Virus record (IMG/VR): IMGVR_UViG_3300020410_000016
Span: 1 to 51,419 of that record
DNA from: a virus
Strand: one strand, 5' to 3'
DNA: 51,419 nt
Below, piece after piece: positions 677-27,088 of the stretch. The notes under the pieces are model-generated. The model was given only the letters and a program-made list of their open reading frames with translations, searched no databases and had not been told where the DNA came from. Within the stretch, counting starts at the first letter, position 1, and each line of letters starts with the position of its first letter. A program made the position numbers and the translations under genes.

Positions 677-700
677 GGGGTATAACAACCCCATTTTTTT
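674..700 (+). terminator. Rho-independent terminator
   Basis: The arms AATGGGGT (674-681) and ACCCCATT (688-695) form a perfect 8-bp stem with a six-base loop (ATAACA). The stem runs directly into seven T residues (694-700). It would end transcripts of the 258-578 gene. The left arm shares bases 674-676 with the -10 box of the promoter at 648-676. Confidence 0.85.
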
Positions 701-1080: not shown

Positions 1081-1085
1081 TACTT

Positions 1086-1253: not shown

Positions 1254-1318
1254 AATATTAAATATAACTTTCGGAGAAACCATACAGTGTATGTATAAAA
1301 TTTGAAATTTACAACATC

Positions 1319-4094: not shown

Positions 4095-4095
4095 A

Positions 4096-4632: not shown

Positions 4633-4634
4633 TT

Positions 4635-4775: not shown

Positions 4776-4778
4776 ATA
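4771..4778 (+). promoter_or_regulatory. T4-type late promoter motif GATAAATA
   Basis: GATAAATA, matching the NATAAATA late-promoter motif described for T4-like cyanophages (T4: TATAAATA), overlaps the stop codon of the 46-aa gene and lies 22 bases before gp25. Transcription would start near 4784. It would drive the gp25-gp6-giant protein unit in the late phase through the phage sigma factor. Confidence 0.65.
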
Positions 4779-4800
4779 ATACAGGACTTTCCCTGTAAAA

Positions 4801-7244: not shown

Positions 7245-7252
7245 ACTCGTAG

Positions 7253-10200
7253 ATGAACATCAATAAGGTCTCCCAATCTGTAGCACAACAGACCCCAGAT
7301 TTTATTGCTAACGATTATCCTCTATTCAATAAATTTCTTGAATATTATTATCGTTCGCAAGAAAAAACTGGATTAGGACAAAATATTCTTAACGATTTTC
7401 TCGGATATCTTGACATTGATAAACTCAATGTTGATATCCTTGATGGTGCAACGAAGATTGTAGAAGATATTACTGCGACTGCTGATGAGATTGTTGTTGA
7501 AAGTGTTGACCAATTTTTAGAAAATGATGGAAGTATATTAATTGATAATGAAGTTGTATATTATGAAGGTGTAACTCATGCACCAAATATCGCACTGAGT
7601 CCTGGTATTTCTTATGATCAGGTAAAACTTAAGTGGACTACTCTTGCAAACCCTTTAAATGGATTTGATGGAACTACAACTCAGTTTTCTCTTACATCAC
7701 AAGATAATCCAATAACTCCTCCTTCTGCACAACATCTGATTGTTACTGCATATAGTAAAGTTTTAGTTCCAAATATTGATTATACAGTAAGTGGTAGTAA
7801 TATTGTTTTTACAACTGCTCCTAGACTAAAACTTGCTTCTGATGACTCTTCACAAACATCTATTGTCTATCTTAGTGGTTTTGTAGAAAATAATATTTTA
7901 GCGATTGATAATTTATCAAACGGATTTGGTGAAGGTAAGACACAATTTACAATGACTCGAAATGGAGTCAGATATGATGGTATTGTTGATGAATATTTCT
8001 ATGCAGTATATGATAATCGTCTCTTAGTTCCTAAAGTAGATTTCTTTATTGATGGAGATCAATTTATTTTCTTAACTGCACCTTTAAATGGTCGTTTCCT
8101 ATCTCTGTACTCTATTGAAGCACCAGTTCCCTCTTTTGGTGCAAATGCTGTAGGATATGCTCGTGTTGATAATGATGGTAAATTAAGTAGTGTTGAGATA
8201 AATCAAAATGGTAGTAATTACAGATTTGAATATCCTCCTCAAGTTGGTATTAACTCAGATACTGGATCTGGTGCATCTGTAAAGACTTTAATTAATGGTG
8301 TTAAAACAGTTTCTTTACTTGATGGTGGTAAAGGTTATAGCGATACAAACCCTCCTACTGTTCAAATACAAACTCCAACAAAAGCAGGTTCTTCAGCAGC
8401 AGTATTAAAGGCAACTGTTACAAATGGTGCAGTTTCTACTGTAGAAATTACTACTTCTGGTAGTGGATATACTTTTACCCCTAGAATCACTTTCAAGCAG
8501 CCTGGTGGTGCTGTACTAGGTGTCTGTCCTATTGTAAATGGACAAGTATCTGGAACTATTCCTATTACTAATGGTGGACAAGGATATACTACTATTCCTA
8601 CAGTTTATATCGATGAACCTACTGGTGTTAACGGTATTAAAGCAGCATTGACAGCAGTTTTAACAAATGGTGTTATTACTGGAATTACTATTGCTAATCC
8701 AGGTCAAGGATACGAAACTGTTCCTAGAATTGCAATTATTGATCCTGTTGGTGCTCAAGTTCTTAGTACAAGAGTTGACTCTGATGGTAGAGTTGTTGGA
8801 ATTGATTTATTAAGTGGTGGTAGCGGTTACGATGACGTTCCTTCCGTTTATATTGTAGATAATAGAAATAATGATCAAGGTGTTTATATTGGTGGAACTG
8901 GTGCGACTGCAACTGCTTCAATATTCAATGGTCAAATTACTGATATTAACGTATCATCTTTTGGAACTGGATACAGTGCTGCTACTCCTCCAACAGTTGT
9001 TATACAATCTCCTCCAGAGGCAAAATGTTCTGCAGAAGTTGGTTTAAATGAAGTAACTGGATTCAAAGTAAATCAAACAGGTAAAGGATATCAAAAAGCA
9101 AAGTTTATTGGATGTGCTAGAGCAGCAAGTTCTATTACAGAATACACTGAAGATGGTAATGCTGTATTTTCTAATAATACCACTGCTGCTGCAGCGACTG
9201 TAGATACAAATGTTAAATGTCTTGATGCTTTATTTGTAAAGAGACTTCTAGACAAATATAAAGAACAATTCTTACCTGATGTTCCAGAATTAGATTATAA
9301 CAAGATTGATGTAAGAACATCAATAAAAACTATTAAAGATTTTTATAGTGCAAAAGGAACTTCCTTTAGTATTAGTTACCTTTTCAAACTTCTTTATGGT
9401 GAACAGGTAAGTATTTCATATCCTAAAGATCAGATTATCAAACCATCTGCTGCAACATGGTCTATTGATACAATTCTTCGTGCTACCTTAGTAAGTGGTA
9501 ATCCTAATGATATTAGAGATGGTCTTTTAATACAAGAAGCAGATATTGCTGATACTAACGTTCAAGCAGCAAGTGCATTAGTTGAAAACTATATTTCAAT
9601 TAAAACTTCTGATGTAGAAATTTTTGAATTAATTTTATCAGAAGAAACTATTAATGGATCATTTACAGTTCCATATAAAACGAAACTTGCAGAACCTCTT
9701 GGAACTGAAGATAGTATTATTACAGTAGACTCTACTATAGGTTGGCCAGAGAGAAACGGTGAATTTTTGATTGGAAGTAGCAGCGATACTACAGAACTTG
9801 TTCAATATAAAGAAAAATCTCTTAACCAGTTTATTGAGTGTACTCGTTCTGTAAATGGTGTTTCTGAAGATTGGGATTCTGCTACAATCGTATCTTCAAA
9901 TTTCACAGTTTTTATCAATAAAGGAACTACTCAAGAAGTAGTGATGAATATTGTTGGTATTGTTGATGCTCAACAAACAACACTTACTGATACTGGTTCT
10001 TACTACTTACCTGGTGATAAATTAACAGTTTCTAAATTAGGTGGTAGTAGTACTGGATCAGAACTAACAACTTGGTTGTATAATGTTAAAAAATTAATTT
10101 CTGTTAGTTCAATTACATTTGGTGGTGTTAATAATAGATCTGCAACTGTAACTTGTGCTAATAATCATGGATTGTTAGTTGGAGATTCAGTTACCATTTA

Positions 10201-13200
10201 TGGTGCAAACCCTATCATCTATAATGGATCTTTCTTAGTTACATCTAGAGATAGCGATACTGTATTTCAATATCAATTACCACAACCAGCAAGTGTAATT
10301 CCCCAAGGTAATATCCTTGTATCTGTTGACCTTAACAAAGGTAAATCTAATAATGCACAAATTTTAAATGCTATTGGTCCTTATACAACAAACGTTCAAA
10401 ACTCATTCTTTAATGATAATTACGTTTACGTTGCATCAACAGGTATTCCTAACTATGAAATAGGTCCTTTTCCTGGTTCTGCATTATTACCAGGCAACCA
10501 ACGTAAGTTAAATAGATTCCCTCTAGCACCCTCTACAATCTCCTCTAAGGACACTATTTCACCTGGTCCTATAGGAACATGGGTAAACGGTGTTTCTGTA
10601 TGGTCTTACAAGTCTCCTACTACAAAAACTTTCGGTGCTATCACTGGAGTTACAATTAATAACTCAGGATCTGGATATGATGCTGCATTCCCTCCTGTTA
10701 TTACAATATCAGGTGGTAACGGAAGTGGTGCTACTGCAGATGTTGTTGTAAATGGTTCTGTTAGTGAAATTACTGTAACTGCTGGTGGATCTGGATATAC
10801 TTCTTCTCCTCTAGTGTCTATTGCTGGTGGTAATGGTTCTGGTGCTGCTGCAACTGCTATCATTACTAAAGGTGTTGTTTCTAGAGTTTTAATTAATGAT
10901 GGTGGAACAGGATATACTTCTCAACCTACTATCACGATTGTTGGTGGTGGAGGAACTGGAGCAACTGCTACAGCATCTGTTAGAGGTCCTATTCAATCTG
11001 TAGGAATTACATCTGGTGGATCTGGGTATACTTCTACACCTACAGTAAATTTAAGTTCTGGTTCTGGTGCTGTTGCTCAAGCGATTGTACAGAATGGTCG
11101 TATCATTTCGGTTGCTATTATTTCTGCAGGTTCTGGTTATACAACTGCTCCAGAAGTTACAATTCAAGGTGTTGGTTTTGGTGCTGTTGCTAGAGCAACT
11201 ATTGACGTTGATGGTGAGAATGCTGGTAGAGTTACTGGTATCACTATTGTTAACAGAGGTATTAACTACGTTCAAGGAACTACACTTATAAGTTTAAATT
11301 CAGTTGGACAAGATGCATCATTTAGTGCTAACGTATTCCAGTGGACATATAATTTACAAGAAACATCAATTCAAGATGCTGCTAAAGGTGGAGTATTTGA
11401 AGGATTTAATCAACAGTATGGTGGAGAGTATGCACATATTTCTAATCCACAAAAATTAAGATTTATTCTCGGTGATAATTTATTCCAAAATAATGCTGGT
11501 GCTATTAAGGAACTTGAAACACAATTAGCACATTCACCTATTATAGGTTGGGCATTTGATGGTAACCCAATTTATGGTCCTTATGGATACACTGATCCTA
11601 CCGATCAAGCATCTAGTATTAAAAAATTAAATACTTCATATCGCTTGAAGGCAAATCTTGTATATAACGAAACAACTAATCCATATCCTGTAAGAACTGC
11701 TGGACCTTTACTTTCTGCAGAAGCAGCTGGTAGATTTGTAGAAGATTATGAATATGTCTTTAGTTTAGGTGATTTAGATCAGTACAATGGTCGTTTTTGT
11801 AAAACACCAGAATATCCAAGTGGTAGATATTGTTATTTTGTAACTATTGATACTACTGAAGATGGTAACCCTGTATTCCCATATGTTTTAGGTCCAAGTT
11901 TCAACTCTGTTGTTGATAAATGGAATCTAGCTGCAGAAGCGGTTCAGCAAAATATTCCTTCTGGAGTTGTCCGTTATCGTGATCCATATGAAAACGTTGA
12001 TATTGATGTAGAAAGAGCACCTAACGTATCTACTAATGCATTAACAACTGAAGCTGGTGAAATTTTACTATTTGAGATTGAAGACGAAGATAGAAGTGGT
12101 GTTATTGATCAAGCAGAGATTGATGATCCTGATCAAATTTTTGAAGAACCTCCACTACAGTTATTTGATTACTTCCCTACAGTTAAATTAGATTCTAAAG
12201 TTGATATTGAAGTTGATACAATTACTAAATTTGAAGATGCTTCTGTAACTGGATTTACTATTGAAAACCCAGGTATTAACTATCAGGTTAATGATAGACT
12301 TGTATTTGATAACACTGATACTGATGGTTCTGGTGTTTCTGCTCGTGTATCTAGAATTAAAGGAGAAACTCCAAGTTCATATACTTTTGAAAATATTGGT
12401 GGAGATAATTATGGTGTTTTAAAAACTACAACTCCTCATAACTTAGTTGTAGGAAATCAAGTTTTTGTTGATTATACGCCAGTTATGGCAAATACTAACA
12501 AATCATTTATTGTTAGACAATATAAGGGTATTGAAGAAATTACAATTAATCAACAAGGTTCTGGATATAATAGCGATATTCCTCCAGAAATTACTATCGT
12601 TCCTAGAGATGGAAATGGAACTTCTGGTAAACTATCTGCTGTAGTAAGTTCAGTAGGATCTATTTCAGCTGTTAATATCATTAACTCTGGTGAGGGATAT
12701 ACACAAAATCCTCGTGTGATTCTTTCACATCCTCAAATTTTCAAAAAAGCAGATTATTATGTTTCACTTATTGAAAATAATAATTATCTAAAAGTTAATG
12801 ATGTAGTTGTTAATGATAATAAAGAAGCATATGTTTGTGGTATAACTAAAAATACTGCTGGAACAGCAAATATAGCATTTATTGCTAAATTATCTGCTAC
12901 TGGTGTTAAAGAATGGCAAAAAACATTAGAAAGTACTGATGGAACTGATTATACAGAATTCCAAAAAATTTATGTTGATGGTGGCGATATTTGGGTTGTT
13001 GGTAATAATAGACCTAACAGTGCTCTTCTAGATTCATATAATCCTGATGTAATTCTTTGTAAGTATACTCAAACTGCTAATGGATTAGATGCTGCACTAA
13101 CTTTCCAAAAAGCATATGCAGGTATTTCTGGATCTACTCGTTCCGATCAAGTTACATCAATTACAAAATATTCAGATACTAGATTTGTTATTGGTGGATT

Positions 13201-16200
13201 TACAAATACCAACTCTATTAATCCTTACGATGCTTATATTGCATTAGTTGATACTAATGGTAACTTTGCTCTTAAGAGGAAAATTGCTTCAACCAGTAAG
13301 TCTGAAAAAGTAACTGGTTTAGTTGTAGATGGTTCAAGTGTATACTTCTCATTAGAAATTGCTAATAATGCTAATGCAGCAGATATTAACGCAGGTTTTG
13401 GTAAATTAACTGTTGGAGTCAATGTCCTCACTGTTGATTGGATAAAAGAATATAATAATACTGCATATTCATTCATTGATACTGGATTAGCAGTTGATGA
13501 ATTTAAAGAATTTTACATTACTGCTACTGCTAGATTAAAATCAGATGATACTACAAAAGATAGTTTCTGGGTTGGTAAAGTTGATGTTGATGGTACTTTA
13601 ATTTGGAATTATCGTTATGTTGTAAGTGGTGGATCTATTTCACTCGCTCCTAAGTGTAGTATTGATATATTTGGTGATCTTAATCTTACTTTTGGTAAAA
13701 TTGCTACTGGAGATGGAAATAAAACAACTGAAATTGTAAAAATTGGATATGATGGTGTAATTAAAAATCACACATCAAATGATTTCAATTTAAACAATAT
13801 TGAAGGTATTACACCATTTGCGATTGCTAGTGATAATTCTGGTGATATGCATGTTTATGGTCAATCATCTTGGAATAGAAATGAGTTTATATTCCAGTTT
13901 ACTGGTGGTGAAACTACTGATACTACAGGACATTATACACCAACATTTATAGGAACTGGTGGTGCAATTCAATATCTTGGAAATGCAGCATATATGCCTG
14001 CATATCAAACAGCATCTCCATCTACTTGGGAAAACTCTGCTATTAAATTTACTGCAGCTTCTTTAGGAACTAAACTTGCAAATGATTGGACTTTAGAGTT
14101 TATGCTCTATAAGAATGGTTCTGAGTATAACACACATAGTCAAACTCAAGTATCCTTAATTAATATTGGTGATGCTACAGACGCTACTGGTGGTCTCTGG
14201 TTGTATTATGATTTAAGCACTGGATATCTAGAATTAGTTGTTACTAATAGTACAACTCAACTTAATAGTGCAGGTTCTGCTTTACAATCCACATTGACTA
14301 ACATGTATGCTGATAATACATGGCAGTTTGTTGGATTGAAAAAAGAAGGTAATCAGTTTACTGGTTACATAAATGGAAATCAAGTATTTACTGGTTCTAT
14401 ATCTAATACTTCCTTAGGAAATAAAGATTTACATATCGGTAATATTCCTGGTAGAAGTGGCACAACTGGACAGTTCCGTAAAAACGAACAATTCCAAGGA
14501 ACTATTGACAATTTAAGATTAAGAAACCGTGCTGTAACTCCTACAGTTCCTAGTGATGTTACTGCATATCCTGCTGCAGGTGGATTTGGATTAAACTTCA
14601 CTTGGGTTGATACTGGATGGTTTACAACTAATCTAAACAAATATGATTATATCGAGTATGTTGGTTGGGGACTTAAAGTTGATAAAAATGCCGATGCTGC
14701 TAGGTTAGGAACAACTACAGTACAAACAAATACACAAGTTGGATTTATTAGAGCTGCTGTAACTGCAGTAACTCCTGTTGCATTAACAACTAGCACAGCT
14801 GGTCTTGGATTAGCAGAAGCTGGTTTCCAATCTCTTGACTTTGATGATGCGACAACTACAATGTCTCAGAATACTCAGACTCCAACTTATAAACAAGATA
14901 TTTGGAGTTCTAGAACTGCTACTGTTCCATCTGCAGGTTCACAAAAACTATCAGTTACAGCAGTTGTTAAAGATAGGTATTACTTTAAAGTTACAAATAC
15001 AGTAAAGATTGATAATATTCAAGAATTAACTCTTAATCAGTCATTCCAGTTTACAACTGGTGCAAAATTAAGACTTAATAATGATTCTGGATCATTTATT
15101 AACTCTGGTTATATTGTAAGACAAGATAATATTAATAGAAAAATATATCTTGCTGTAAACAATAATACTTGGACTAATGATACAAACACAGGACAATTAG
15201 TTACTGAACAATTTAATGAAGCATCTACTTATAATATTGTAGGTCCTATTCCAAATGATATTAATGAAATTAAATCATATACTTTTGCACAGGTTAATAA
15301 TACAACACCTGGTACATTTAATATAGATCTAAACAGTTATAATCATCCTGAGGGTGGATCTAATAACTTAGATGAACTTGCAATGTTCAAACCTCATAGT
15401 GATAATGATTATTCAATTAGAATTGATGAAGTTTCTGGATCTTCTCCATTCATTGTAGGTTCTGTTGTCTTTATTACTTCAGCAGATATTAGTTTTAATG
15501 CTGCTTATACAACAACACAAATTACTAATTTAACTGGTGTATTAAAAATAACTCTTGTTGCTAATTTGAAGAAGAGACTTCAAGTTTCTGCTGTTGCTAA
15601 TAGTGATGAAGTATATGTAATTACTGGAACAAGACATTATCTTTCTGCTGGTGAAATGCTACAGATTGATGGTAACCCAACACAAACTATTGGTGCTACT
15701 TCATATGATGAATATGATGGTGCTTTTGCTGTAGATACTGTTATTAGTCCTCTTGAATTTACATATAAACTTCCATCTGCTGCTTTAACAGATCCTGCTA
15801 CTACTGCAAGTAACGTTAGTATATTTGTTAAGTCTCCTGTTATCAAGATGTATAACGGACATCAATATTTGTTTGACTTGAGTCATTCTTCAATGGTTGG
15901 TGGTAACTTATCATTCTCTAAAGATAACCTATACAAACTTGAATATTCATTCAACTCTATTGAACGTGTTGGAACTCCTGGTATAAGTGGAGGAGGTGCT
16001 ACTACACCAACAGTTAAATTAAAAATTGATTCATCTGTAATTACAAATATTTCTTATTACTTCGATCCATCTAGAACAGGTGATGATTCTCCTGTTATTG
16101 CTGGTAGTTATCTTGATGTAACTAATTCACCTTATGTTGGAACATTTGATGTTACCTCTATATCTGGTGCAACTATTACTCGTGGTGCTGATACATTTAA

Positions 16201-19200
16201 GTTCTTACTTCTTAATGAACCTGAGGGAAATGCAGATATAAATCAAACATCTTATGCTACAAGTTCTGAAAAAGCAGTTGGTTCTATTGATACTATTCGT
16301 ATTATCAATCCAGGTGGTTTCTATACTAGATTACCAGTTGTAACTAATATTGCTTCAACAAGACAAATTGAAAGAGTTCAAATTAATGCACCAGGTACTG
16401 AGTATGCAGTTGGTGTTTATAATGCTGTTCCTATCGGTGGTGATGGTGAAGGTGGATTAGTTCAAATTACTGTTGCTGACGGAACTGATGATGAGGGTGT
16501 AACAATTCCTGGTCAAATTCAAGAAGTATTAGTCACATCACCAGGTAAAAACTATACAACTGCAACTATTGATATTGAAGCAATTTCTGGTATCCTTGGA
16601 TCTGGTTTGACTGGATCTGGTGCAGAATTAGTTGTTGTTATTCCTCCTTCTGGAACTGGTGCATCTGTATTCACTAAAGGTGATAAAGTTGGTAAGATTA
16701 AGAATCTTAAAAATAATAACTTTGGTTATGATTATCCTCATGATTATACTTTACGTCCTGAGATTACATTCCCAATTAATGCTCAGTTAACTGCTACTAG
16801 CATTCTGGATAGTATTACTGTAACTGATCCTGGTTCTGGATATTCTCAAGCACCTGCTGTTATTATCACTGGAGGTGGTGGATCTGGTGCTGTTGCAGAA
16901 TCTACAATTAGAAATGGTAGATTAGAAAAAATTGAAGTAAAAGATCCAGGTGCTGGTTACTCTTCTACACCAACAGTTTCTCTTAAATCTTCATTTAACT
17001 ATGTTGTTAACGTTGACTTAGGATTACTTCAGTTCTCATTCCCACATGGTATTACAAATGGAGCACAAGTTACTTTAGATGTAACAGCTACTGATGATGG
17101 TCAAGATTTCCCACTTGCATCTGGTGCTATTGGTCGTTTAAATGGAACTACAACTTATTTTGCTATTGCTGGTACTGCAAACTCTCTTGAAGATGATCAG
17201 TTAAAATTAGCGATCACTGCTGCAAACGCAAACTTAGGTGATGCTATTACTTTCATAAACGCAGGTAATGGTCGTCAATCACTATTAACTGAATCATTTG
17301 GTGGTGCTGCTGAAGCAAACGTTATTACTTCTACCTTCTTAGAAGGTGAACTTGTATATCAAGGTGATTCATTTGAAACTGCAACTGCACAAGGTTATGT
17401 CTCTACAAACAATGGTTGGCAAGTTGGACCTAGAGTTATTAAGATTGTTGATTATACAGGTAACTTTGCTCAAGGTCAGAAAGTAACTGGTGTTATTTCT
17501 AAGTCTTCAGGTACTATTAGTGATCTAAACATTGCTAAAGGTGTTCTTGAAATTGGATCTATCACTAAAACTACTGGTCAGTTTATTGATGACGTTGGTA
17601 AACCTTCAGAAATTATTCAGAAGATTCAAGACTCTTACTATTATCAGGACTTCTCTTATGCTGTTAAGTCTGCTGTTTCTATTGGTGAATGGAAAGATAT
17701 TCTTATTAAAAACGTTCATCCTGCATCCTTCAAAGTATTTGGTGAGTTAAATCTAAATGAATATGGTCAGATTCCTAATAAAGAAACTGATTTCCAATTA
17801 ACTAAGTCTGTTGAACTTGCTAGAGAAGCGATTGTTCCTAATATTCAAAACTTTGCTTTAGTTGAACCAATCTACTCTACATTTAATAATACTGAAGTAT
17901 TCTTCCGTCAGAAACGATTAACATCTTCTGAGAATATTCTAACTTCTGTTGTTCAAAGATTAGATGATATTTCTAGTTTATTTGATGGTGTTAGAATATC
18001 CTTCCCACTAACTGTTAACGGATCAAACGTTGTTGCAAATGCTAATCAGTTAATGATTGTATTGAATGGTGTTGTTCAGAATCCTGGTTCATCTTTTGAA
18101 ATTCAAGGTGACTCTGTTGTGTTTGCTGAACCACCTGCACCACCTGCTAGTGTTAAGTATGTAAGTGTTACTATTTCACAGATCGCAACTGTTGAAATGA
18201 CATTTACTAATATTAGTGGTATCTTCCCTTATGTTGGTAATACTCTTGTAGGTACTGCTTCTACTGCTAGATTAATTGTTACTAAAGTTGTTGGTAACGT
18301 AGTTTCTGGATATATTACTGAAGGAACATTCATAACAGGTGAACTTGCTACAGCAAGTGTTACAGGATTTGCTTCAAATGTTGCTACAGTAACTAACGTA
18401 ACTAATCTTGGTTTATTCACGTTTGGTGAAACAGTTACTAACTTTGCAGGTGACACTGCTATTGTTGAACAAATTAACTTAGAGACAGGACAAGAAACAC
18501 CTCTTGCTGATCTTCGTTTTGGAATTGGTGCTGCTACAACTACTATTGATTTAGTTAGTGCTACAGACGCTACTGCTGCTGTAACTGCTGGAACAATCGT
18601 TGCGACTGATAAGATTCAGATTGGATCTGAAATCATGTTGGTTAATAGTGTAACTGATTTCTCAAATTACACACAGATTACAGTAACTAGAGCACAAGAT
18701 GGAACTGCTGCTGTTGGTCATTTAGAAAATCAACCAATCTACGGAACTACTATTTCTGTTACTAATAGTTTAACTTTAAGTAAGACTGCAGGTACATATC
18801 AGTCTACACCAGGTCTCTTTAACATTCAAAATAATGATGTTATTATTGCTGCAAACTCTGGTGTAGTTGCTCGTGTTACTGCAACTGCTGTTTATCAAGA
18901 TCCTGCAACTCTAGAGTTTATTCCTCAGGTTAATATATCTGAAGGTTCTTCATTCTTTGGATTACTCTTTAACAGAATTGCTTCTCAAACATATCCAAAC
19001 GTTGTTCTTGATAATATTGCAGAATCTCAAGTTAATATTGTTGACTTTACAAATAATACAACTGCTATTGATGCTAACTTCCCTTCAAATGAAGAGATTA
19101 GTAATATCATTATACCTTATGATAATGCCTCTGGTGCTTTAACACAAGATGAATTTATTCGTAACTACAAATTAGAATATGGTAATAATGTTGGAGACTT

Positions 19201-22200
19201 TATAGCAGGTGAGCAAGCATACATTAGAAAACTAACATATAAATCTAAAGTTGGAGATGGTTTCTTCTCTGCAGGTCAAATTATTAGAACTACTGATACC
19301 AAAGCAGAAGTTATTGGATTTAACCAAGCAAGGAGCACAATCTATCTTGGTAAAATTGGTAGAACTCAATCAACTGGTCAAGATTATCATTCAATTACAT
19401 TTACTAATGGTGCACAGATAGACACTTCAACTAAGAAGTTTGGTCAAGCTTCTTTACTATTAGGTGCAGCAAATCATACTCACACATTCTCAAGCGGTGT
19501 TACAAATGCAATTACTGCTGGTGGTGGAGCAACTGGAACATTTACTGCTGTTGCAGGTACAACTTATGATCCTGAGACAGGTGTTTTAGTTATTAATATT
19601 GGATCTCATTCTTTGACAACTAGCAACACTGTAACGATCGCTGATAACGGAATCGTATTTACATGTTCTGCTGATAATAATACAACAACTCACGCATATC
19701 CAAGATCAACTGATCCTGCATCTGGATCTGCTCTTTCAATCACTGCTGTAACTGGAACAACTATTACAGTTAACGTTGGTGCTGCTAATGTTACTATTGA
19801 CTATATTACTATTCCTTCATCTGCAGAATTTGCTTGGGGTGGTAATGCATTTACAATGGAACTATATGTTAATCCTGCTGCTTCATCATTATCAGGAACT
19901 CATACACTGGTTGATATGAGAGCATCTGCTGCTAATGAGGTAGCATCTCGTTTATATCTTGAAGCAGGTCAAATTAGATATAATGTTAATAATTCAGATT
20001 TAGTCACATCTGGTGCTACAACACTTAATAACAATACATGGTATCATATTGCAGTTCAAAGATCATCTACAACCACTAAAATATATCTCGACGGAACTGA
20101 AGTAGGAACTGGAACTGATAGTACAACATATGTTGCTAAACCAGTTAGAATTGGTGCAGATTATGCAGCTGCAAATGCATTCATTGGTCATATTGATGAA
20201 TTCAGACTTTCTGATAATGCCAGATATTCTACAGCACCATTTACACCTCTTAATGGTATATTCCAAGGTGATACTAATGCAAAATTACTAATTCACTTTG
20301 AAGGTGATGATGCACAAACATTTACAGAAGATTGGTCTGGAACTGAAGGATTTACAAGAGGTGAGGACTTTAATAATGATGCAATTCTTGCAACATCTAG
20401 AACAACAGGAGCACCATCAGGATTTGCTGGTAAATCACAAAGATATTATGATGCTGCTGATTTAATAATTGCAAATAGTGATTTCATTAAGAAAGAATCT
20501 GTATATCGAATGAGACAGAGATATCCAGAAATTGTAGTTCTAGGTACTCGTTTCACTCCAACTAATGTAACATATGATGCTGCTACTGGTCTATTGTCTA
20601 TGACAGTAACTGGCAACACATTTACTAATGGTGGTCAATTTAAACCTACAACTGCTTCTTATGTTCCTGGTACAGGTGTATTGACTATCACTAAGATTAA
20701 TCATGGTGTTACAAATGGTCAAAGAATCAATATTAAAGTTGGTGGTATTACATTCCAGTGTAATGAAGATAGTTATGGATCTGATCATCCATATCCTCGT
20801 TCCACAGACCCTGTTGCTGGTAAGTGGTTGACAGTTTCTAATGCATCTGCAAATACATTTGATGTAAATGTTGGAACTTCATCTAATACTACAACTCATC
20901 AATTCTTAAGTGCTTTAGATAACGCGATTACTGTTGAGAAAGATAGACTTAAAATTGTAGATAATTCTCTCACATTTACTTGTGCGATGGATGGTAATAC
21001 TGCTAATAAAACTTATCCTCGTGCAACAGATCCAGCATCTAAAGATGTTGCTCTTCCAATCGTATCTTCTACTTCTACTAACTTAACAGTTAATGTAGGA
21101 CCTTCTCCTCTAGTTAATTTCCAACCATCTAACGCAACTTACGATCCTGCAACTGGTGCATTCGTAATGACGATTGCTAACCATACAATTAATGTTGGAA
21201 CACAAATTAGATTGACTGCAGATTCATTCACATTTACTTGCACACAAGATGGTAACAGTGCACAGAAGACTTATCCTCGTGCAACTGCAGGCGATGGATC
21301 TCCTGATCCTGCATATAATACTGCTTTAGATGTGACTGCAGTCGGTACATCAACACAAGATATTAGTAGTGCAGCGTATGTTCCTACAACAGGTATTCTA
21401 ACAATTAATACAAGTGGTAACCATGGATTATCTACTGGCAATAGAATTCAAATTGCTGATAATTCATTAACATTCACATGTGCTTACGATAGTAATGCTA
21501 CAAACCACACATATCCAAGACAGACTGATCCTATTAGAGGTGAGTGGGTTGCAGTGACTGTTGTTGATAGTGATACATTTACTATTGATGTCGGAACATC
21601 TAGTGATACTTCTACACATTCATTTGTATCTGCAACTGCTGGTGCTTTAATCAAGCAAACTGGAACTGTAACTATCAACGTTGGAGTTTCTGCACAGGCA
21701 GATCAATATGCACATACATTCGTATCTGCTGCAGCAAATGCAGTTGTTACTGGTGGTAACTACTTACATACATTTGTCTCTGCTGCAAATAATGCAGTCA
21801 TTATTGATGAAGGTATTAATTGTGAAGATGATGTTCGTGATACATTAAATGCAATCGTTCAAGATCTTCGTAATGGATCTAATAATCATATTTGGGATGC
21901 TGCATCTTACTACGTCGATAGAACAACCAATCCAGTTCAAATTTCAAATATTGAACCTGCTGTTAAAGAAACATTATTTGTTTATGAAACAGTCGATGAT
22001 ATGCTTCAATATATCATTACTAATACTCTTTGGACAGTTCAAGGTGATCATGGATTAACACAGAAGACTGATACAACCATTACAGACTCCTCTAATCCTT
22101 CATACACATATAAAACTCCCACGGGTATTACTTACAACGCTGCAACAGGTGAAATGGTAATCACCGCAGCAGGTCATGGTTTAACTACTGCAAATAGAAT

Positions 22201-25200
22201 TGGAATCGCAACTGAATCTTTAACCTTTACATGTAATAAAGATGGTAACGATCGTCAGACTGCATATCCTCGTGCGATTGCTGGTGACGGAAATCCAGAT
22301 CCTGCGTACAATGCGGTTATTGCAATTACAGCAGCAGATACAGATACATTTACAATTAACGTAGGTGCATCAGGACCTAATGATCAATATACACATACAT
22401 TTGTTTCTTCTACAAATAATTCAATTAAAGTTCTTGATTACTCAACTGCAGATTGTGCAGATGTATTCACAACTGTTGGTAACTTAATTAATATTCTTAC
22501 TGATACAATTTCTAACGCTGCTGCTTCTTCACCTGTTGATCATTTGGCAAGTGTTACTAAAGTTTCTCCATTGTATGAATTTGTTGGTGCTACAGTTGAT
22601 GCATTCTTACAAGTTCCATTTAATATTGATTATCATAATGCAAATACTGATCTTGCATATACTAATCAAATTGATGTTGATTCTCAATACAGATATAGAG
22701 ATGCTGCAAACTTAATTCGTGCAAACACTGGTCCTATTATTGATAAAGCATCTTATGATTTACTTCAGAGATATCCTGATCTTGCATCAGAGATGCCTAG
22801 AAACTCTGATGGAAGTGGAGATGGAACATTACGTTGTCAGACTGACTTACTATTAATTTTAAATGAAATAGTTAAGGATATTGAATTTGGTGGTAACTTC
22901 TTTACTAATCAAGTGGCAAGACAATATCTTGGTACTAATGATGAACTAATTCATATTCGTCTCCAAGTTTGGCAGTCTGCATACGCACATGATCGTCTTG
23001 GTTTCTACATGAAGCAAGCGATTAATGGTGATCTAACTTACGATAATACTGATGATATCATTGTTGGTGATTGGGGTATCACACAAGATGGCGGTTCATG
23101 TGCTAATGTTCAATCAACTATTGATACATTAATTGCTAATCTTAATGACACTATCGCTCCTACAAGTGCTGACTTTAATATTGGTGCTGATAGATTATAC
23201 TTCAATAGAGAATATCTTGCTCAAGAAGCAACAGGTCTCACTACTGCAGAGTTCACTTATACTCTTAACGGTATTAACTATACAGCGTTTACATACTCTG
23301 ATGTATCAGCACGTCAAACAGAATTTAAAAATATTATCCTTGGTGTAATTTCTGATCTACAAACTGGTGGAACTAATAGTACAATTCGTGCTATTGAAAC
23401 CTTTATTAATACATCAGGAAATATTCAAACTATTGATGATAAGTTACTACCAACACTTTATGCTCTTGAAAGAATTAGATTTGTAGGTCAAAAAGCACTT
23501 AACAATTTACTATATGATCTTAATGATTCTGTTACTGGAGATCAATATAGAGCACAACATGCTACTTCTAGTGCATATAGAGATTCTGAAACTCCTACAG
23601 ATATTAATCAAGTTCTCTATCGTTTCCGTGATTTAATTGATATTGCAGTTAACATCCTTGCACCAGGCAAAGATGAGATGAGAAGTGCTGCTAAGAATAT
23701 TCTTTATAATAAAAACTATTATAAAGATGAAATTGGTAATATTGTTAACAGTCAGTTTGGTTCTAGTTCTTGGACATATAACAGTTTCTTAGATGAAATG
23801 GTTGATAATACTGTTCATGACTTGATTATTACTGATGTAACTAAAGAAAGAACAGCATATACATTATCTGTTGAAAGTGTTTCTGCTACTCAGTTTGTTG
23901 TTGGAGAGACAGTTAGAACTAATAACTCTGGTGAAGCAGAAGTTTTAGAGTGGGATAATGAACTTAACAAACTTTATGTTGGTGCTTTTGGTGGTAATGC
24001 TTTTGTTGCTACTAACACACTTACAGGACTAACATCTGGTGCAACTGCTACTATTTCTACAAGTGGTGTAAGTGCTGCATACGATTGGCACACTGCTCCT
24101 GCTAACGTAAAAGTTTTAGCATCTGCTAAGTTAATTACATCTGCTATTAGTGGTCAAGTATCAGGAACTAATCTTTGGACTAATCCTGAGGCATTTGCAT
24201 CAAACTGGCAATCATTCCAGATCAGTGGTGCAGATAGTATTACTATTACTAACAATAGTATTGCTGCTCCAGATACAACTGTTACAGCAGAGAAGATATT
24301 TGCTCCTAATTCTCAAACTGGTGTTCACCAATCATATAGAGATTATAGTTTAAATGCTTTTGAAACTTTTGATACTGATTCAGTTAAATTTGACAGTGGT
24401 ACAGAAACATTTGATACTGGTGCATCTGGAACTGCAGTTGATGATCAAACATTTACATATTCAGCATTCTTTAAAGCAGCAGGTTCTCAATCTGTTAGAT
24501 TTGGTATTATTCTTGATGATGGAACATCTGGTGAACAAAATATATTCTTTGATCTCAATCTAGTAAATGGAACTATTGGATCTCTGTTTATACCTCAACA
24601 AGGTATTACAGGAGATGCTTATGGTGTAGTTCCTTATGGTGATGGTTGGTATAGAGCATATATTACAACTACATTTGGATTTGGTTTCTCTACTCTTAGA
24701 GGAAGTATTATTCTTAACAGTGCAACAGGTACACAAAGTTGGACAGGTGATGGAAGTGTTGGAGCATATGTTTGGGGTGTTAAACTTAATAAAGGTGCTC
24801 TTGATCCTTATACTGCAGTGAGTGGTGAAATATTCTATGCAAACACTGAATATAATATTAAACTTTATGCACTAGGATTACTTGAAACTTACATCAATCA
24901 AGCATTAGCAGGTACACTAACTTCACCATCTACTAATGCAGGTTTCTATGCTTTCTATGATTCAAACACTGCAACTAATTACAATACAACTACTATTAGT
25001 AGAAATATTAGATATGGATTGAATATTATTGAACAACAATTATCAGTTGATACTTACTACACCACACTTCAAGAAGTTAAGGGTATTAAGATTCCTACTA
25101 AAACTTATGGAGTCAGAGATTTACTTGTTGGTATTGGTGGAGGAATTGGTTTTGCTGACTTTGCTTATGGAACTCAAAGTGATGCATTAGCTGAGATTGA

Positions 25201-27088
25201 AACTCAAACTGAAAACTCAGGTAAGATTGTTCAAGTTTATAAGAGATTTAGAATTGATGGTGACATCACCGATGGTCCTTATACTATGAATGAGACAGTT
25301 CAAAAACAAGGTGATGCAAGTATCACTGGTGTTGTTTATGGATTCCATACTGACGACAATTACAAATATCTTGATGTTCGTGTTACTGCTGGTGTATGGC
25401 AAGTTACAGACAATGTTGTAGGTGCTACTAACTCAACAACAGCACAAGTTAGTGCTATCGAAGATAGAATCCATATTATTGATGTTAAAGGTGGATTTGA
25501 AAATGATATCCCATTCAAGGGATATACAAGTGGAAATACTGCAAGTCCTACTAATTACTTTAAAACACAAGCAGCAATCACTGATAATACAGGTGGTTCG
25601 TTAACTGTTGATACTGCATCACTCATAGGAACATTTGAGGTCAACTCTGTTGTTTATCCTACAAGTTCTAGAAGATACTTTGATGTTGTTAAATATGCTG
25701 GATTAGATATTAAAGTTGGTGATCAAATTGCCTCTTCTGGTCATGTTAGATTTGGTATACAAATCATAGGTGGATATCAAACATTCACTGTAGGAAATAG
25801 ACTTTATAAGGTTGTTAATGCAGTTGCAGATCCTGCACAATACTGCATTATCACTGAGGTTGACTTAGGTAGTAACTTCATATATGTAAGTGTTGCACAA
25901 GGAACATTTGGTAATGGTGATATTGTAGGTGATTATGGTGCTGCTATTAGTGATATTCCTAGTGGATATGCAAGTATTTTAACTACTGTTACAACAGCAG
26001 GTGCTGCTGCAGCAAGAATCCAAGATATCCGTACAATCGGTGTTAATAAGAGATTATATCTCAGTGGAATTACAGGAACATGGAATTCTAGAGATGGAAT
26101 CATAGGAGTTGATGGTTACAAATCTGCTATCACTAATAACGTAGAACTTAAGGCAAGAGTTAAACGTTCCTTCAGAGGTTTTGATGGAACTCAAACTAAC
26201 TTTAAACTTACCACTGCGAATGGAACTCCATACTTCCCAGATCCTGCAGGTCACATGTTGATCTTTATCAATGGTATTTTACAACCACCTGGTGCTAATA
26301 ATGCATTTACTGCGTTCTCTGATATTATTCAATTTACTGAAGCACCTGATCTTGGAGCATCATTTACTGGATTCTATATTGGTAAACTTAGACAGTTAGA
26401 TGATATCTCATTCGAGTTTGACTCATTGAGACAGTCATTCAACTTGAAACGTAATGATGTATTCTACTCACTAACTCTTACAGAAGGTGTTCAATCTAGT
26501 GTTACTAGACCTGAGAATAATATCATTGTTTCTCTTAATGGTGTTATTCAAGAAGCAGGCGTTGGTTTTGAAATTGTTGGTTCTAGAATTATCTTCTCTG
26601 AGATACCTAGATTTGGATCTACATTTGTTGCCTTCTCTTATGTTGGTTCTGAAGCGGACGTTGATGCTGCTGAAGTTGTTCCTCCTATTGAAATTGGAGA
26701 CTTTATTGACATACAAGGTGAAACAGATGACAGAGAAGTTGCTGTTATTGAATCTTCCAATTCACTTATTACATTTGACTATCTTGGATCTATCTTTGGA
26801 CAAGGTGCTCAAGGTCAAGCAGTTCTAACAACAGGATTTATTGACAAAGTACAGGTAACAGGTGGTGGATCTGGTTACACCTCACGTCCAACTGTTAGAA
26901 TTGACTCCATCTCTGGTTTCGATGGTAATATTCGTGCATTGGTTGGTGTAGCAGGTGTTGAAATTAGTAATGCTGGATCTGGATATCAGAATCCTACCAT
27001 TGCAGTAGAAACTTCTGTTCCTGATGATTGGACTGCTCCTGACCTTTCACTATACGGTGAAGAGTTAGTAGACCCCGAAACCCCATAA
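7253..27088 (+). CDS. Giant modular baseplate/fibre protein, 6611 aa (gp7 position)
   Basis: One uninterrupted frame of 6611 codons between gp6 and gp8, where T4 has gp7 (about 1030 aa). The N-terminus (FIANDYPLFNKFLEYYYRSQ) and the segment near residues 656-735 (RTSIKTIKDFYSAKGTSF, YLFKLLYGEQVSISYP) are the parts I recognise from large cyanophage baseplate proteins, and probably anchor it. Next come GSGY repeats (about 300-620 and 1125-1335), a YHYH domain (1417-1556, GWAFDGNPIYGPYGY, TPEYPSGRYCYF), an EF-hand-like loop (1611-1622) and a likely beta-propeller (1831-2218). LamG-like domains follow (2263-2430 and about 4050-4333), then more GSGY repeats (3010-3250), a conserved helical segment (3433-3636), the TFTC/YPR cassettes (about 4100-5063), a carbohydrate-binding-like module (5638-5846) and C-terminal paired beta modules. 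Location and host contact are inferred; gp7 orthology is uncertain. Confidence 0.85.
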   Translation: MNINKVSQSVAQQTPDFIANDYPLFNKFLEYYYRSQEKTGLGQNILNDFLGYLDIDKLNVDILDGATKIVEDITATADEIVVESVDQFLENDGSILIDNEVVYYEGVTHAPNIALSPGISYDQVKLKWTTLANPLNGFDGTTTQFSLTSQDNPITPPSAQHLIVTAYSKVLVPNIDYTVSGSNIVFTTAPRLKLASDDSSQTSIVYLSGFVENNILAIDNLSNGFGEGKTQFTMTRNGVRYDGIVDEYFYAVYDNRLLVPKVDFFIDGDQFIFLTAPLNGRFLSLYSIEAPVPSFGANAVGYARVDNDGKLSSVEINQNGSNYRFEYPPQVGINSDTGSGASVKTLINGVKTVSLLDGGKGYSDTNPPTVQIQTPTKAGSSAAVLKATVTNGAVSTVEITTSGSGYTFTPRITFKQPGGAVLGVCPIVNGQVSGTIPITNGGQGYTTIPTVYIDEPTGVNGIKAALTAVLTNGVITGITIANPGQGYETVPRIAIIDPVGAQVLSTRVDSDGRVVGIDLLSGGSGYDDVPSVYIVDNRNNDQGVYIGGTGATATASIFNGQITDINVSSFGTGYSAATPPTVVIQSPPEAKCSAEVGLNEVTGFKVNQTGKGYQKAKFIGCARAASSITEYTEDGNAVFSNNTTAAAATVDTNVKCLDALFVKRLLDKYKEQFLPDVPELDYNKIDVRTSIKTIKDFYSAKGTSFSISYLFKLLYGEQVSISYPKDQIIKPSAATWSIDTILRATLVSGNPNDIRDGLLIQEADIADTNVQAASALVENYISIKTSDVEIFELILSEETINGSFTVPYKTKLAEPLGTEDSIITVDSTIGWPERNGEFLIGSSSDTTELVQYKEKSLNQFIECTRSVNGVSEDWDSATIVSSNFTVFINKGTTQEVVMNIVGIVDAQQTTLTDTGSYYLPGDKLTVSKLGGSSTGSELTTWLYNVKKLISVSSITFGGVNNRSATVTCANNHGLLVGDSVTIYGANPIIYNGSFLVTSRDSDTVFQYQLPQPASVIPQGNILVSVDLNKGKSNNAQILNAIGPYTTNVQNSFFNDNYVYVASTGIPNYEIGPFPGSALLPGNQRKLNRFPLAPSTISSKDTISPGPIGTWVNGVSVWSYKSPTTKTFGAITGVTINNSGSGYDAAFPPVITISGGNGSGATADVVVNGSVSEITVTAGGSGYTSSPLVSIAGGNGSGAAATAIITKGVVSRVLINDGGTGYTSQPTITIVGGGGTGATATASVRGPIQSVGITSGGSGYTSTPTVNLSSGSGAVAQAIVQNGRIISVAIISAGSGYTTAPEVTIQGVGFGAVARATIDVDGENAGRVTGITIVNRGINYVQGTTLISLNSVGQDASFSANVFQWTYNLQETSIQDAAKGGVFEGFNQQYGGEYAHISNPQKLRFILGDNLFQNNAGAIKELETQLAHSPIIGWAFDGNPIYGPYGYTDPTDQASSIKKLNTSYRLKANLVYNETTNPYPVRTAGPLLSAEAAGRFVEDYEYVFSLGDLDQYNGRFCKTPEYPSGRYCYFVTIDTTEDGNPVFPYVLGPSFNSVVDKWNLAAEAVQQNIPSGVVRYRDPYENVDIDVERAPNVSTNALTTEAGEILLFEIEDEDRSGVIDQAEIDDPDQIFEEPPLQLFDYFPTVKLDSKVDIEVDTITKFEDASVTGFTIENPGINYQVNDRLVFDNTDTDGSGVSARVSRIKGETPSSYTFENIGGDNYGVLKTTTPHNLVVGNQVFVDYTPVMANTNKSFIVRQYKGIEEITINQQGSGYNSDIPPEITIVPRDGNGTSGKLSAVVSSVGSISAVNIINSGEGYTQNPRVILSHPQIFKKADYYVSLIENNNYLKVNDVVVNDNKEAYVCGITKNTAGTANIAFIAKLSATGVKEWQKTLESTDGTDYTEFQKIYVDGGDIWVVGNNRPNSALLDSYNPDVILCKYTQTANGLDAALTFQKAYAGISGSTRSDQVTSITKYSDTRFVIGGFTNTNSINPYDAYIALVDTNGNFALKRKIASTSKSEKVTGLVVDGSSVYFSLEIANNANAADINAGFGKLTVGVNVLTVDWIKEYNNTAYSFIDTGLAVDEFKEFYITATARLKSDDTTKDSFWVGKVDVDGTLIWNYRYVVSGGSISLAPKCSIDIFGDLNLTFGKIATGDGNKTTEIVKIGYDGVIKNHTSNDFNLNNIEGITPFAIASDNSGDMHVYGQSSWNRNEFIFQFTGGETTDTTGHYTPTFIGTGGAIQYLGNAAYMPAYQTASPSTWENSAIKFTAASLGTKLANDWTLEFMLYKNGSEYNTHSQTQVSLINIGDATDATGGLWLYYDLSTGYLELVVTNSTTQLNSAGSALQSTLTNMYADNTWQFVGLKKEGNQFTGYINGNQVFTGSISNTSLGNKDLHIGNIPGRSGTTGQFRKNEQFQGTIDNLRLRNRAVTPTVPSDVTAYPAAGGFGLNFTWVDTGWFTTNLNKYDYIEYVGWGLKVDKNADAARLGTTTVQTNTQVGFIRAAVTAVTPVALTTSTAGLGLAEAGFQSLDFDDATTTMSQNTQTPTYKQDIWSSRTATVPSAGSQKLSVTAVVKDRYYFKVTNTVKIDNIQELTLNQSFQFTTGAKLRLNNDSGSFINSGYIVRQDNINRKIYLAVNNNTWTNDTNTGQLVTEQFNEASTYNIVGPIPNDINEIKSYTFAQVNNTTPGTFNIDLNSYNHPEGGSNNLDELAMFKPHSDNDYSIRIDEVSGSSPFIVGSVVFITSADISFNAAYTTTQITNLTGVLKITLVANLKKRLQVSAVANSDEVYVITGTRHYLSAGEMLQIDGNPTQTIGATSYDEYDGAFAVDTVISPLEFTYKLPSAALTDPATTASNVSIFVKSPVIKMYNGHQYLFDLSHSSMVGGNLSFSKDNLYKLEYSFNSIERVGTPGISGGGATTPTVKLKIDSSVITNISYYFDPSRTGDDSPVIAGSYLDVTNSPYVGTFDVTSISGATITRGADTFKFLLLNEPEGNADINQTSYATSSEKAVGSIDTIRIINPGGFYTRLPVVTNIASTRQIERVQINAPGTEYAVGVYNAVPIGGDGEGGLVQITVADGTDDEGVTIPGQIQEVLVTSPGKNYTTATIDIEAISGILGSGLTGSGAELVVVIPPSGTGASVFTKGDKVGKIKNLKNNNFGYDYPHDYTLRPEITFPINAQLTATSILDSITVTDPGSGYSQAPAVIITGGGGSGAVAESTIRNGRLEKIEVKDPGAGYSSTPTVSLKSSFNYVVNVDLGLLQFSFPHGITNGAQVTLDVTATDDGQDFPLASGAIGRLNGTTTYFAIAGTANSLEDDQLKLAITAANANLGDAITFINAGNGRQSLLTESFGGAAEANVITSTFLEGELVYQGDSFETATAQGYVSTNNGWQVGPRVIKIVDYTGNFAQGQKVTGVISKSSGTISDLNIAKGVLEIGSITKTTGQFIDDVGKPSEIIQKIQDSYYYQDFSYAVKSAVSIGEWKDILIKNVHPASFKVFGELNLNEYGQIPNKETDFQLTKSVELAREAIVPNIQNFALVEPIYSTFNNTEVFFRQKRLTSSENILTSVVQRLDDISSLFDGVRISFPLTVNGSNVVANANQLMIVLNGVVQNPGSSFEIQGDSVVFAEPPAPPASVKYVSVTISQIATVEMTFTNISGIFPYVGNTLVGTASTARLIVTKVVGNVVSGYITEGTFITGELATASVTGFASNVATVTNVTNLGLFTFGETVTNFAGDTAIVEQINLETGQETPLADLRFGIGAATTTIDLVSATDATAAVTAGTIVATDKIQIGSEIMLVNSVTDFSNYTQITVTRAQDGTAAVGHLENQPIYGTTISVTNSLTLSKTAGTYQSTPGLFNIQNNDVIIAANSGVVARVTATAVYQDPATLEFIPQVNISEGSSFFGLLFNRIASQTYPNVVLDNIAESQVNIVDFTNNTTAIDANFPSNEEISNIIIPYDNASGALTQDEFIRNYKLEYGNNVGDFIAGEQAYIRKLTYKSKVGDGFFSAGQIIRTTDTKAEVIGFNQARSTIYLGKIGRTQSTGQDYHSITFTNGAQIDTSTKKFGQASLLLGAANHTHTFSSGVTNAITAGGGATGTFTAVAGTTYDPETGVLVINIGSHSLTTSNTVTIADNGIVFTCSADNNTTTHAYPRSTDPASGSALSITAVTGTTITVNVGAANVTIDYITIPSSAEFAWGGNAFTMELYVNPAASSLSGTHTLVDMRASAANEVASRLYLEAGQIRYNVNNSDLVTSGATTLNNNTWYHIAVQRSSTTTKIYLDGTEVGTGTDSTTYVAKPVRIGADYAAANAFIGHIDEFRLSDNARYSTAPFTPLNGIFQGDTNAKLLIHFEGDDAQTFTEDWSGTEGFTRGEDFNNDAILATSRTTGAPSGFAGKSQRYYDAADLIIANSDFIKKESVYRMRQRYPEIVVLGTRFTPTNVTYDAATGLLSMTVTGNTFTNGGQFKPTTASYVPGTGVLTITKINHGVTNGQRINIKVGGITFQCNEDSYGSDHPYPRSTDPVAGKWLTVSNASANTFDVNVGTSSNTTTHQFLSALDNAITVEKDRLKIVDNSLTFTCAMDGNTANKTYPRATDPASKDVALPIVSSTSTNLTVNVGPSPLVNFQPSNATYDPATGAFVMTIANHTINVGTQIRLTADSFTFTCTQDGNSAQKTYPRATAGDGSPDPAYNTALDVTAVGTSTQDISSAAYVPTTGILTINTSGNHGLSTGNRIQIADNSLTFTCAYDSNATNHTYPRQTDPIRGEWVAVTVVDSDTFTIDVGTSSDTSTHSFVSATAGALIKQTGTVTINVGVSAQADQYAHTFVSAAANAVVTGGNYLHTFVSAANNAVIIDEGINCEDDVRDTLNAIVQDLRNGSNNHIWDAASYYVDRTTNPVQISNIEPAVKETLFVYETVDDMLQYIITNTLWTVQGDHGLTQKTDTTITDSSNPSYTYKTPTGITYNAATGEMVITAAGHGLTTANRIGIATESLTFTCNKDGNDRQTAYPRAIAGDGNPDPAYNAVIAITAADTDTFTINVGASGPNDQYTHTFVSSTNNSIKVLDYSTADCADVFTTVGNLINILTDTISNAAASSPVDHLASVTKVSPLYEFVGATVDAFLQVPFNIDYHNANTDLAYTNQIDVDSQYRYRDAANLIRANTGPIIDKASYDLLQRYPDLASEMPRNSDGSGDGTLRCQTDLLLILNEIVKDIEFGGNFFTNQVARQYLGTNDELIHIRLQVWQSAYAHDRLGFYMKQAINGDLTYDNTDDIIVGDWGITQDGGSCANVQSTIDTLIANLNDTIAPTSADFNIGADRLYFNREYLAQEATGLTTAEFTYTLNGINYTAFTYSDVSARQTEFKNIILGVISDLQTGGTNSTIRAIETFINTSGNIQTIDDKLLPTLYALERIRFVGQKALNNLLYDLNDSVTGDQYRAQHATSSAYRDSETPTDINQVLYRFRDLIDIAVNILAPGKDEMRSAAKNILYNKNYYKDEIGNIVNSQFGSSSWTYNSFLDEMVDNTVHDLIITDVTKERTAYTLSVESVSATQFVVGETVRTNNSGEAEVLEWDNELNKLYVGAFGGNAFVATNTLTGLTSGATATISTSGVSAAYDWHTAPANVKVLASAKLITSAISGQVSGTNLWTNPEAFASNWQSFQISGADSITITNNSIAAPDTTVTAEKIFAPNSQTGVHQSYRDYSLNAFETFDTDSVKFDSGTETFDTGASGTAVDDQTFTYSAFFKAAGSQSVRFGIILDDGTSGEQNIFFDLNLVNGTIGSLFIPQQGITGDAYGVVPYGDGWYRAYITTTFGFGFSTLRGSIILNSATGTQSWTGDGSVGAYVWGVKLNKGALDPYTAVSGEIFYANTEYNIKLYALGLLETYINQALAGTLTSPSTNAGFYAFYDSNTATNYNTTTISRNIRYGLNIIEQQLSVDTYYTTLQEVKGIKIPTKTYGVRDLLVGIGGGIGFADFAYGTQSDALAEIETQTENSGKIVQVYKRFRIDGDITDGPYTMNETVQKQGDASITGVVYGFHTDDNYKYLDVRVTAGVWQVTDNVVGATNSTTAQVSAIEDRIHIIDVKGGFENDIPFKGYTSGNTASPTNYFKTQAAITDNTGGSLTVDTASLIGTFEVNSVVYPTSSRRYFDVVKYAGLDIKVGDQIASSGHVRFGIQIIGGYQTFTVGNRLYKVVNAVADPAQYCIITEVDLGSNFIYVSVAQGTFGNGDIVGDYGAAISDIPSGYASILTTVTTAGAAAARIQDIRTIGVNKRLYLSGITGTWNSRDGIIGVDGYKSAITNNVELKARVKRSFRGFDGTQTNFKLTTANGTPYFPDPAGHMLIFINGILQPPGANNAFTAFSDIIQFTEAPDLGASFTGFYIGKLRQLDDISFEFDSLRQSFNLKRNDVFYSLTLTEGVQSSVTRPENNIIVSLNGVIQEAGVGFEIVGSRIIFSEIPRFGSTFVAFSYVGSEADVDAAEVVPPIEIGDFIDIQGETDDREVAVIESSNSLITFDYLGSIFGQGAQGQAVLTTGFIDKVQVTGGGSGYTSRPTVRIDSISGFDGNIRALVGVAGVEISNAGSGYQNPTIAVETSVPDDWTAPDLSLYGEELVDPETP
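8150..9115 (+). repeat. GSGY protein repeats, block 1 of the giant gene
   Basis: About eight degenerate units of 40-45 codons. Each has a strand, then a G-x-G-Y turn (GGKGYSD, TSGSGYTF, NGGQGYTT, NPGQGYET, SGGSGYDD, SFGTGYSA, QTGKGYQK), a P-x-V-x-I strand, then a Gly/Ala-rich stretch and an NG turn. The pattern suggests a long beta-solenoid or chain of small beta modules acting as a spacer. The units are similar in protein but well diverged in DNA. Confidence 0.8.
10625..11260 (+). repeat. GSGY protein repeats, block 2 of the giant gene
   Basis: Five to six closely related units (NSGSGYDA, AGGSGYTS, DGGTGYTS, SGGSGYTS, SAGSGYTT). These are the most regular copies in the window. At the DNA level the units near 10789 and 11018 share a near-identical 21-base core differing at one position, so this block could recombine. 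Same predicted beta fold as block 1. Confidence 0.8.
12083..12118 (+). other. EF-hand-like calcium loop in the giant protein
   Basis: Residues 1611-1622 read DEDRSGVIDQAE, with D at 1, D at 3, S at 5, G at 6, I at 8 and E at 12. That is the canonical 12-residue EF-hand loop. It lies just behind the YHYH domain. A single loop without a clear partner could be a stand-alone calcium site that stabilises the fibre in sea water. Confidence 0.5.
19463..22440 (+). repeat. TFTC/YPR cassette repeats within the giant gene
   Basis: Six copies of a module of about 80-105 codons. The consensus order is TYDPATGVL, a strand, HGLTTGNRI, SLTFTC, D-G-N, TYPR-x-TDP, a strand and TFTVNVG. TF-x-C motifs lie near 19658, 20745, 20975, 21230, 21470 and 22220. 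Copies are often closed by short HTFVSAANNAV elements. The first copy lies inside a LamG domain, copies 2-5 are tandem (about 20560-21815), and copy 6 stands alone (about 22118-22440). The copies are diverged in DNA but clearly related in protein. Confidence 0.8.

Follow-up and report, generated by a model that had tools for sequence, protein, structure and literature searches.

In the gp7-like virion gene of a marine cyanophage, the second LamG domain is interrupted by one complete copy of a repeat, the TFTC/YPR unit. The unit is very probably an autonomous beta domain of an unnamed cyanophage family, lodged in a hairpin loop of the LamG domain and recurrently inserted into loops, and it is predicted to have an accessory adhesin or spacer role. 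The window, that is the whole stretch of DNA analysed, is 51,419 nt long (IMG/VR virus record IMGVR_UViG_3300020410_000016, positions 1–51,419). A sequence-only reading of the window had proposed an in-frame module inserted in LamG with duplication of its target. The separable in-frame module is upheld by the analysis; the duplication of a target is not.

A DNA similarity search shows that DNA similar to the window is confined to records of Synechococcus, Prochlorococcus and other cyanophages or marine phages, and on its sequence the window is assigned to a T4-like cyanophage. The host gene of the unit encodes 6611 amino acids and its reading frame is uninterrupted across the whole cassette region (Table 1). 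Residues 1–2583 match the baseplate wedge family PF23786 (E = 4e-7, score 30.2 against a cutoff of 27), residues 1–1250 match phrog_701 with 2394 bits, and the protein also matches phrog_2885, “baseplate wedge subunit” (E = 5e-148). The PHROG matches carry the names virion structural protein or baseplate wedge. A profile search places a YHYH domain in the first part of the protein, and the P-SSM4 homologue is annotated as gp7. The cassette-bearing homologue in phage S-SM1 is SSM1_102, a member of cluster T4-GC969, and the T4-GC969 protein has been detected in purified S-SM1 virions (PMC3037559). Two more very long open reading frames are present downstream in the window, at positions 34118–41290 (2390 aa) and 41836–48030 (2064 aa).

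Table 1. Features of the host gene and of the LamG site in the window.
Feature	Position	Strand	Basis
Host gene, 6611-aa gp7-like baseplate wedge/virion structural protein	7253..27088	+	Open reading frame, PF23786, phrog_701, P-SSM4 annotation
YDNASG-loop insertion site (second site), empty in the window; filled in L112, L114 and L116	19118..19135	+	Position read from the window sequence
Second LamG domain, first part, up to its first strand (KKFGQASLLL)	19376..19462	+	Alignment of filled and empty loci; strand is model residues 26–29
Left linker GAAN, left copy of 12-bp repeat	19463..19474	+	GGTGCAGCAAAT
Inserted TFTC/YPR unit, predicted nine-strand beta domain (HTHTF...TFTC...YPR...TITVNV)	19475..19777	+	Alignment, profile, predicted structure
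Right linker GAAN, right copy of 12-bp repeat	19778..19789	+	GGTGCTGCTAAT
Rest of LamG domain (VTIDYITIPSS...)	19790..20299	+	PF13385 E 2e-21; pentraxin, laminin G and neurexin LNS fold matches
TTGAPSG-loop site before KSQRYY (third site), empty in the window; filled in L108, L014, L027 and others	20402..20422	+	Position read from the window sequence
Run of four further TFTC/YPR units (20636–20878, 20885–21100, 21119–21364, 21359–21598)	20636..21598	+	Profile search
Another TFTC/YPR unit, apart from the four-unit run	22043..22369	+	Profile search

The two GAAN linkers are separated by 101 codons, which contain one full TFTC/YPR unit. This unit covers positions 3–107 of the 108-position unit profile with 136 bits, a match that holds by construction, as LamG-site units were the starting set of the profile before it was widened (the matches of other units are not by construction). 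The FTC and YPR motifs and the terminal VNVG strand are all present. The LamG domain itself matches PF13385 (Laminin_G_3) at profile positions 5–145 of 151 (77 bits against a cutoff of 27.6). The open reading frame, the unit profile and the resumption of the PF13385 match together bear out the proposal of a complete in-frame repeat within the second LamG domain.

The AlphaFold model of the LamG domain with its unit has a pLDDT of 91.1 and a pTM of 0.81, and the model of the isolated unit has values of 86.8 and 0.77. Only IMG/VR rows entered the structure prediction. After an offset of 29 residues, all nine strands of the isolated unit match those of the in-place model. Because the nine strands coincide alone and in place, the unit is predicted to be an autonomous domain, separable from the LamG fold. 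An inseparable fold had been named as an outcome that would speak against a module; the predicted unit folds alike by itself and inside LamG. It is placed between LamG strands at model residues 26–29 and 143–146. These two strands would pair as the first beta-hairpin of LamG, and from this position the two ends of the unit should be close in space. In Foldseek comparisons with the PDB, the LamG part matches pentraxin PTX3, laminin LG and neurexin LNS (E about 1e-6 to 1e-5, probability 1.00), and it is modelled as a beta-sandwich of the concanavalin/pentraxin type.

Related phages provide natural counterparts. Eighty-four related loci, some of which duplicate one another, are readable on both sides of the LamG site; 46 of them are filled and 38 are empty. 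When only distinct loci are counted there are 63 (33 filled and 30 empty). Filled loci have an insert of 315–327 nt (105–109 codons) between the LxL and DY strands. Empty loci read LLL-DGTG-DYVSIP, or variants of this, with no gap between the same strands. The sequence-only reading had suggested alignment with relatives devoid of the cassette, and had held that its proposal would fail if related LamG domains always contained the segment; the 38 empty loci supply the former and show that the segment is not always there. The left linker of filled loci spans about six residues from LxL to HTF, a length that suits one shared insertion point at the LamG site.

The 26 named phage records retrieved comprise 12 filled ones, e.g. 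S-SM1, Syn19, S-TIM4 and P-SSM7, and 14 empty ones, e.g. P-SSM3, P-SSM4, P-RSM1 and Syn33. In a metagenomic virus contig such as the window, an apparent insertion might be an artefact of assembly or binning. The arrangement is found, however, in independent contigs and in the sequenced isolates S-SM1, Syn19, P-SSM7 and S-TIM4; the isolates refute an artefact, which has virtually no chance of being the explanation. The hosts WH7803 and WH8102 have each yielded phages of both states, therefore no simple host-range role of the unit is evident. Both S-TIM4 and Syn19, which are filled, were used in host-adaptation experiments (PMC6224464); the gp7-like cassette gene is not among the examples given in the main text of the paper.

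The presence of both states could also mean that the segment is ancestral to this LamG domain and that the empty forms are deletions. Change at the LamG site could in principle have run either way, and some of the five filled/empty state changes required by the midpoint-rooted tree of LamG bodies may be losses. However, the most divergent LamG bodies on that tree are found among the empty forms, and both the PDB relatives of LamG and the Pfam profile are without the segment. The unit also occurs outside this site, in runs and within other loops, and is predicted to fold alone. An ancestral segment is considered unlikely. Under the preferred reading, an inserted domain, the unit would have been gained at the LamG site, with or without subsequent losses; the argument for this direction is that LamG domains elsewhere do not have the unit.

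The near-identical direct repeat at the two junctions is present as first described. GGTGCAGCAAAT and GGTGCTGCTAAT are identical at 10 of 12 bases, lie 315 nt apart and encode GAAN in the same frame. GGTGCNGCNAAT sites occur twice in the whole window (+ strand) and GAAN occurs only twice in the 6611-aa protein, in each case at the LamG junctions. Such a repeat could be the duplicated target of a transposition-like insertion. A match of at least 10/12 is rare among random codon-phased pairs (p = 0.0008). When the best match is sought within junction-sized zones, however, 7–12% of random placements attain this level, so that the repeat by itself is weak evidence and within chance. Its distribution is also narrow. 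Only the clade of the window (the window itself, L008, L009, L010 and L054) has GAAN at both ends. The nearest filled clade reads GRAN..GVAQ, with 7/12 or fewer bases matching, and the majority of filled phages show no repeat, their junctions reading S[KP]Gxx..VGAVP. In the larger clade to which the window belongs, GxA at both ends may be the usual G-A linker that joins units in a run.

The cleaner unit insertions at two other sites (B and C, described below) show no target duplication. A target duplicated in independent insertions, as would be expected of a transposable element, was thus not seen at the LamG site or at sites B and C, and the insert is shorter than would be needed to encode a known mobility enzyme. 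The claim of target duplication is therefore largely refuted, and a transposition-like origin of the repeat is highly improbable. The GAAN repeat is better read, on sequence, as a clade-specific likeness of two glycine-alanine linkers.

The history of the LamG site was followed with trees of the LamG bodies and of the units. A single clade of filled LamG bodies is rejected (AU p = 1e-5). In the unit tree, a group with support of 0.99 includes all LamG-site copies and three copies from other sites. In a larger unit tree, the smallest clade with the LamG-site copies has 43 copies, all of them from the LamG site (three of these tips carried the wrong automatic label “other”); support of its stem is weak (44). 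The grouping together of LamG-site units suggests that there were probably one or very few ancient entries into the loop. The conflict between the two trees appears to arise because the LamG domain, and not the cassette alone, is exchanged.

Close pairs of loci that differ in state point in the same direction: their LamG bodies have 61–70% DNA identity, as against 80–89% in the upstream flank. P-RSM1 (empty) and metaG-MbCM1 (filled) show 89% identity upstream, 70% in the LamG body and 83% downstream, and S-M1 (empty) and S-IOM18 (filled) show 87%, 67% and 84%, respectively. A third discordant pair, L012 and L037 (81%, 61% and 48%), is less informative, given its diverged downstream flank. In pairs of the same state the LamG body is usually near the identity of the flanks; exceptions include L014/L038 and L053/L091. 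Judged from these identities, filled/empty differences in close pairs reflect exchange of the whole LamG body rather than of the cassette alone. As the body is replaced as a whole, the cassette and LamG together behave as exchangeable alleles. No in-place excision or insertion was seen at the LamG site, the discordant close pairs having swapped LamG bodies, and no filled/empty pair among the compared loci is DNA-clean there; the founding insertion is therefore hidden. Between L037 and L039, identity falls from 100% upstream through 93% in the LamG body to 87% downstream, and a recombination breakpoint within or beside LamG is likely in this pair.

Insertion can be followed more closely at other loops. 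The search for empty counterparts was limited to isolated full-length units (n = 114), as neighbours in runs confound it. Empty counterparts were found for all 39 contexts of the LamG site class, for 25 of 25 contexts in the loop before KSQRYY (site B) and for 3 of 3 in the YDNASG loop (site C). By sequence these three site classes are well supported. The QLDQIGDE loop class has empty counterparts in both of its contexts, with flanks about 61% identical in protein, and the class adjacent to IINN..W has them in 21 of 33. Several single-case classes are weak, and assignment of the weaker classes, with identities around 40–60%, is unsure.

The cleanest filled/empty pair is L108 and L107 at site B. 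The two are about 92% identical in DNA over 8 kb, and a 294-nt unit in L108 replaces about 25 nt of L107 between flanks of 94% and 92% identity. At site C, a 306-nt unit is present in L116 as compared with L107 or L108 (flanks 84–86% and 83%). Evidence for insertion of a domain into a loop usually comes from ancient cases. In contrast, natural before/after pairs exist in these related viruses, one of them with flanks 92–94% identical in DNA, and the unit enters several host folds as well as itself. This makes directly testable both the rules by which a domain insertion is tolerated and the ways in which marine phage adhesins diversify.

Units also occur within units. In 15 distinct contexts, one unit is split between its FSC and YPR parts by a second, complete unit. 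In most cases the rejoined outer halves score near the sum of the two halves, with up to 98 bits; in P-SSM7, outer halves of 56 and 36 bits give 96 bits when rejoined. Rejoining gives no such rise in L125, L141 and L156, where nesting is less sure. One protein fragment, L124, has two separately nested units (positions 405–710 and 1314–1613).

It is doubtful that the unit is a domain-scale mobile element, a fold that uses its own recombination route to spread through cyanophage virion genes into surface loops of unrelated folds and into its own FTC-YPR loop; were this true, nested adhesins would grow through repeated loop insertion. Site labels on the unit tree require 39 changes, compared with 136 in shuffles (the labels are automatic, and the three LamG-site units mentioned above are mislabelled). 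This strong clustering suggests that moves between sites are rare. There are no near-identical units within one genome, the best being 79.6% over 230 bp; therefore no fresh transposition was caught.

The preferred reading of loop insertion entails the following sequence of events. The unit would have entered the LamG hairpin loop in the distant past, on one or very few occasions, and cassette and LamG would then have been exchanged among phages as alleles. New copies may arise by illegitimate or short-homology recombination. Such insertions would survive where the close ends of the unit fit a surface loop and leave the host fold unbroken.

Sugars or proteins are common ligands of LamG folds. 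Since the protein is also a virion component, the likeliest role of the unit is that of an accessory adhesin or spacer; on the virion it may alter the lectin face that LamG shows to the host surface.

The unit was compared with known domains. A tblastn search with the window's unit gave hits in 327 phage records, all of them named Synechococcus, Prochlorococcus, Cyanophage or Marine. No family in Pfam or NCBIfam matches the window's unit. A few of 80 unit members weakly match PF14262 (Cthe_2159) and PF12195 (best E = 0.0006); for PF12195, the beta barrel of phage endosialidase, the weak matches are 2 of 80 (best E = 0.003). A predicted endosialidase of cyanophage S-PRM1 appears in the fold search of the unit at E = 0.03. 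A fold search against the PDB gave a best E of 1.0, with no match at E ≤ 0.001, while predicted viral structures gave E-values down to 2e-15, the named significant matches being all from Synechococcus phages. Sequence matches of the unit in the PDB, to Hax3 and iota-carbonic anhydrase, cover 24–37 positions and were judged to be chance. PHROG profiles include the unit within long whole virion proteins but not as a named domain, and no description of it was found in the open-licence literature on LamG or insertions in cyanophage tails. By its sequence, the TFTC/YPR unit constitutes a cyanophage domain family without a name in Pfam or NCBIfam, one that is widespread and yet missing from the curated libraries searched. 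An alignment of the 80 units (A3) has invariant H49, C68, Y79, P80, R81 and D84; the lone conserved cysteine and the histidine perhaps form a metal or packing site.

By analogy, the nearest precedent in kind would be the “evolved” Dit proteins of 936 lactococcal phages, which are described as having an inserted BppA-type carbohydrate-binding module (PMC6669499; Hayes et al. 2018, cited there). As far as that account goes, there too a separate module lies in frame in a baseplate protein and is present or absent within a phage group; the scaffold, however, is Dit and not LamG, and the insert is of a known type with demonstrated binding. The TFTC/YPR unit, unlike the Dit insert, matches no known structure and nests in itself. 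Mosaicism of receptor-binding and tail proteins, in which recombination swaps domains among phage structural proteins, is also comparable, and the portion of the survey consulted describes domain sharing between otherwise unrelated proteins (PMC10684548). The present unit differs in its recurring insertion into loops of folded domains that have empty counterparts. The tandem BACON domains of crAssphage likewise represent a small domain expanded in a phage protein, although the opening of the abstract does not describe loop insertion or self-nesting (PMC6949934). BACON was not among the matches in the Pfam searches with the unit. Neurexin LNS (LamG) domains have loops with optional inserts that regulate function (PDB 1c4r, as far as that entry was consulted). 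Those inserts derive from alternative splicing, whereas the cyanophage insert is an entire domain, encoded permanently in the gene, and the parallel is functional only.

In metaG-MbCM1 (L006, positions 188–7390), the region with LamG and the unit lies in an open reading frame annotated as “gp14 neck protein” (AFD02936.1), and is followed by a second open reading frame. From its sequence, AFD02936.1 looks like a gp7 homologue that has been split and misnamed.
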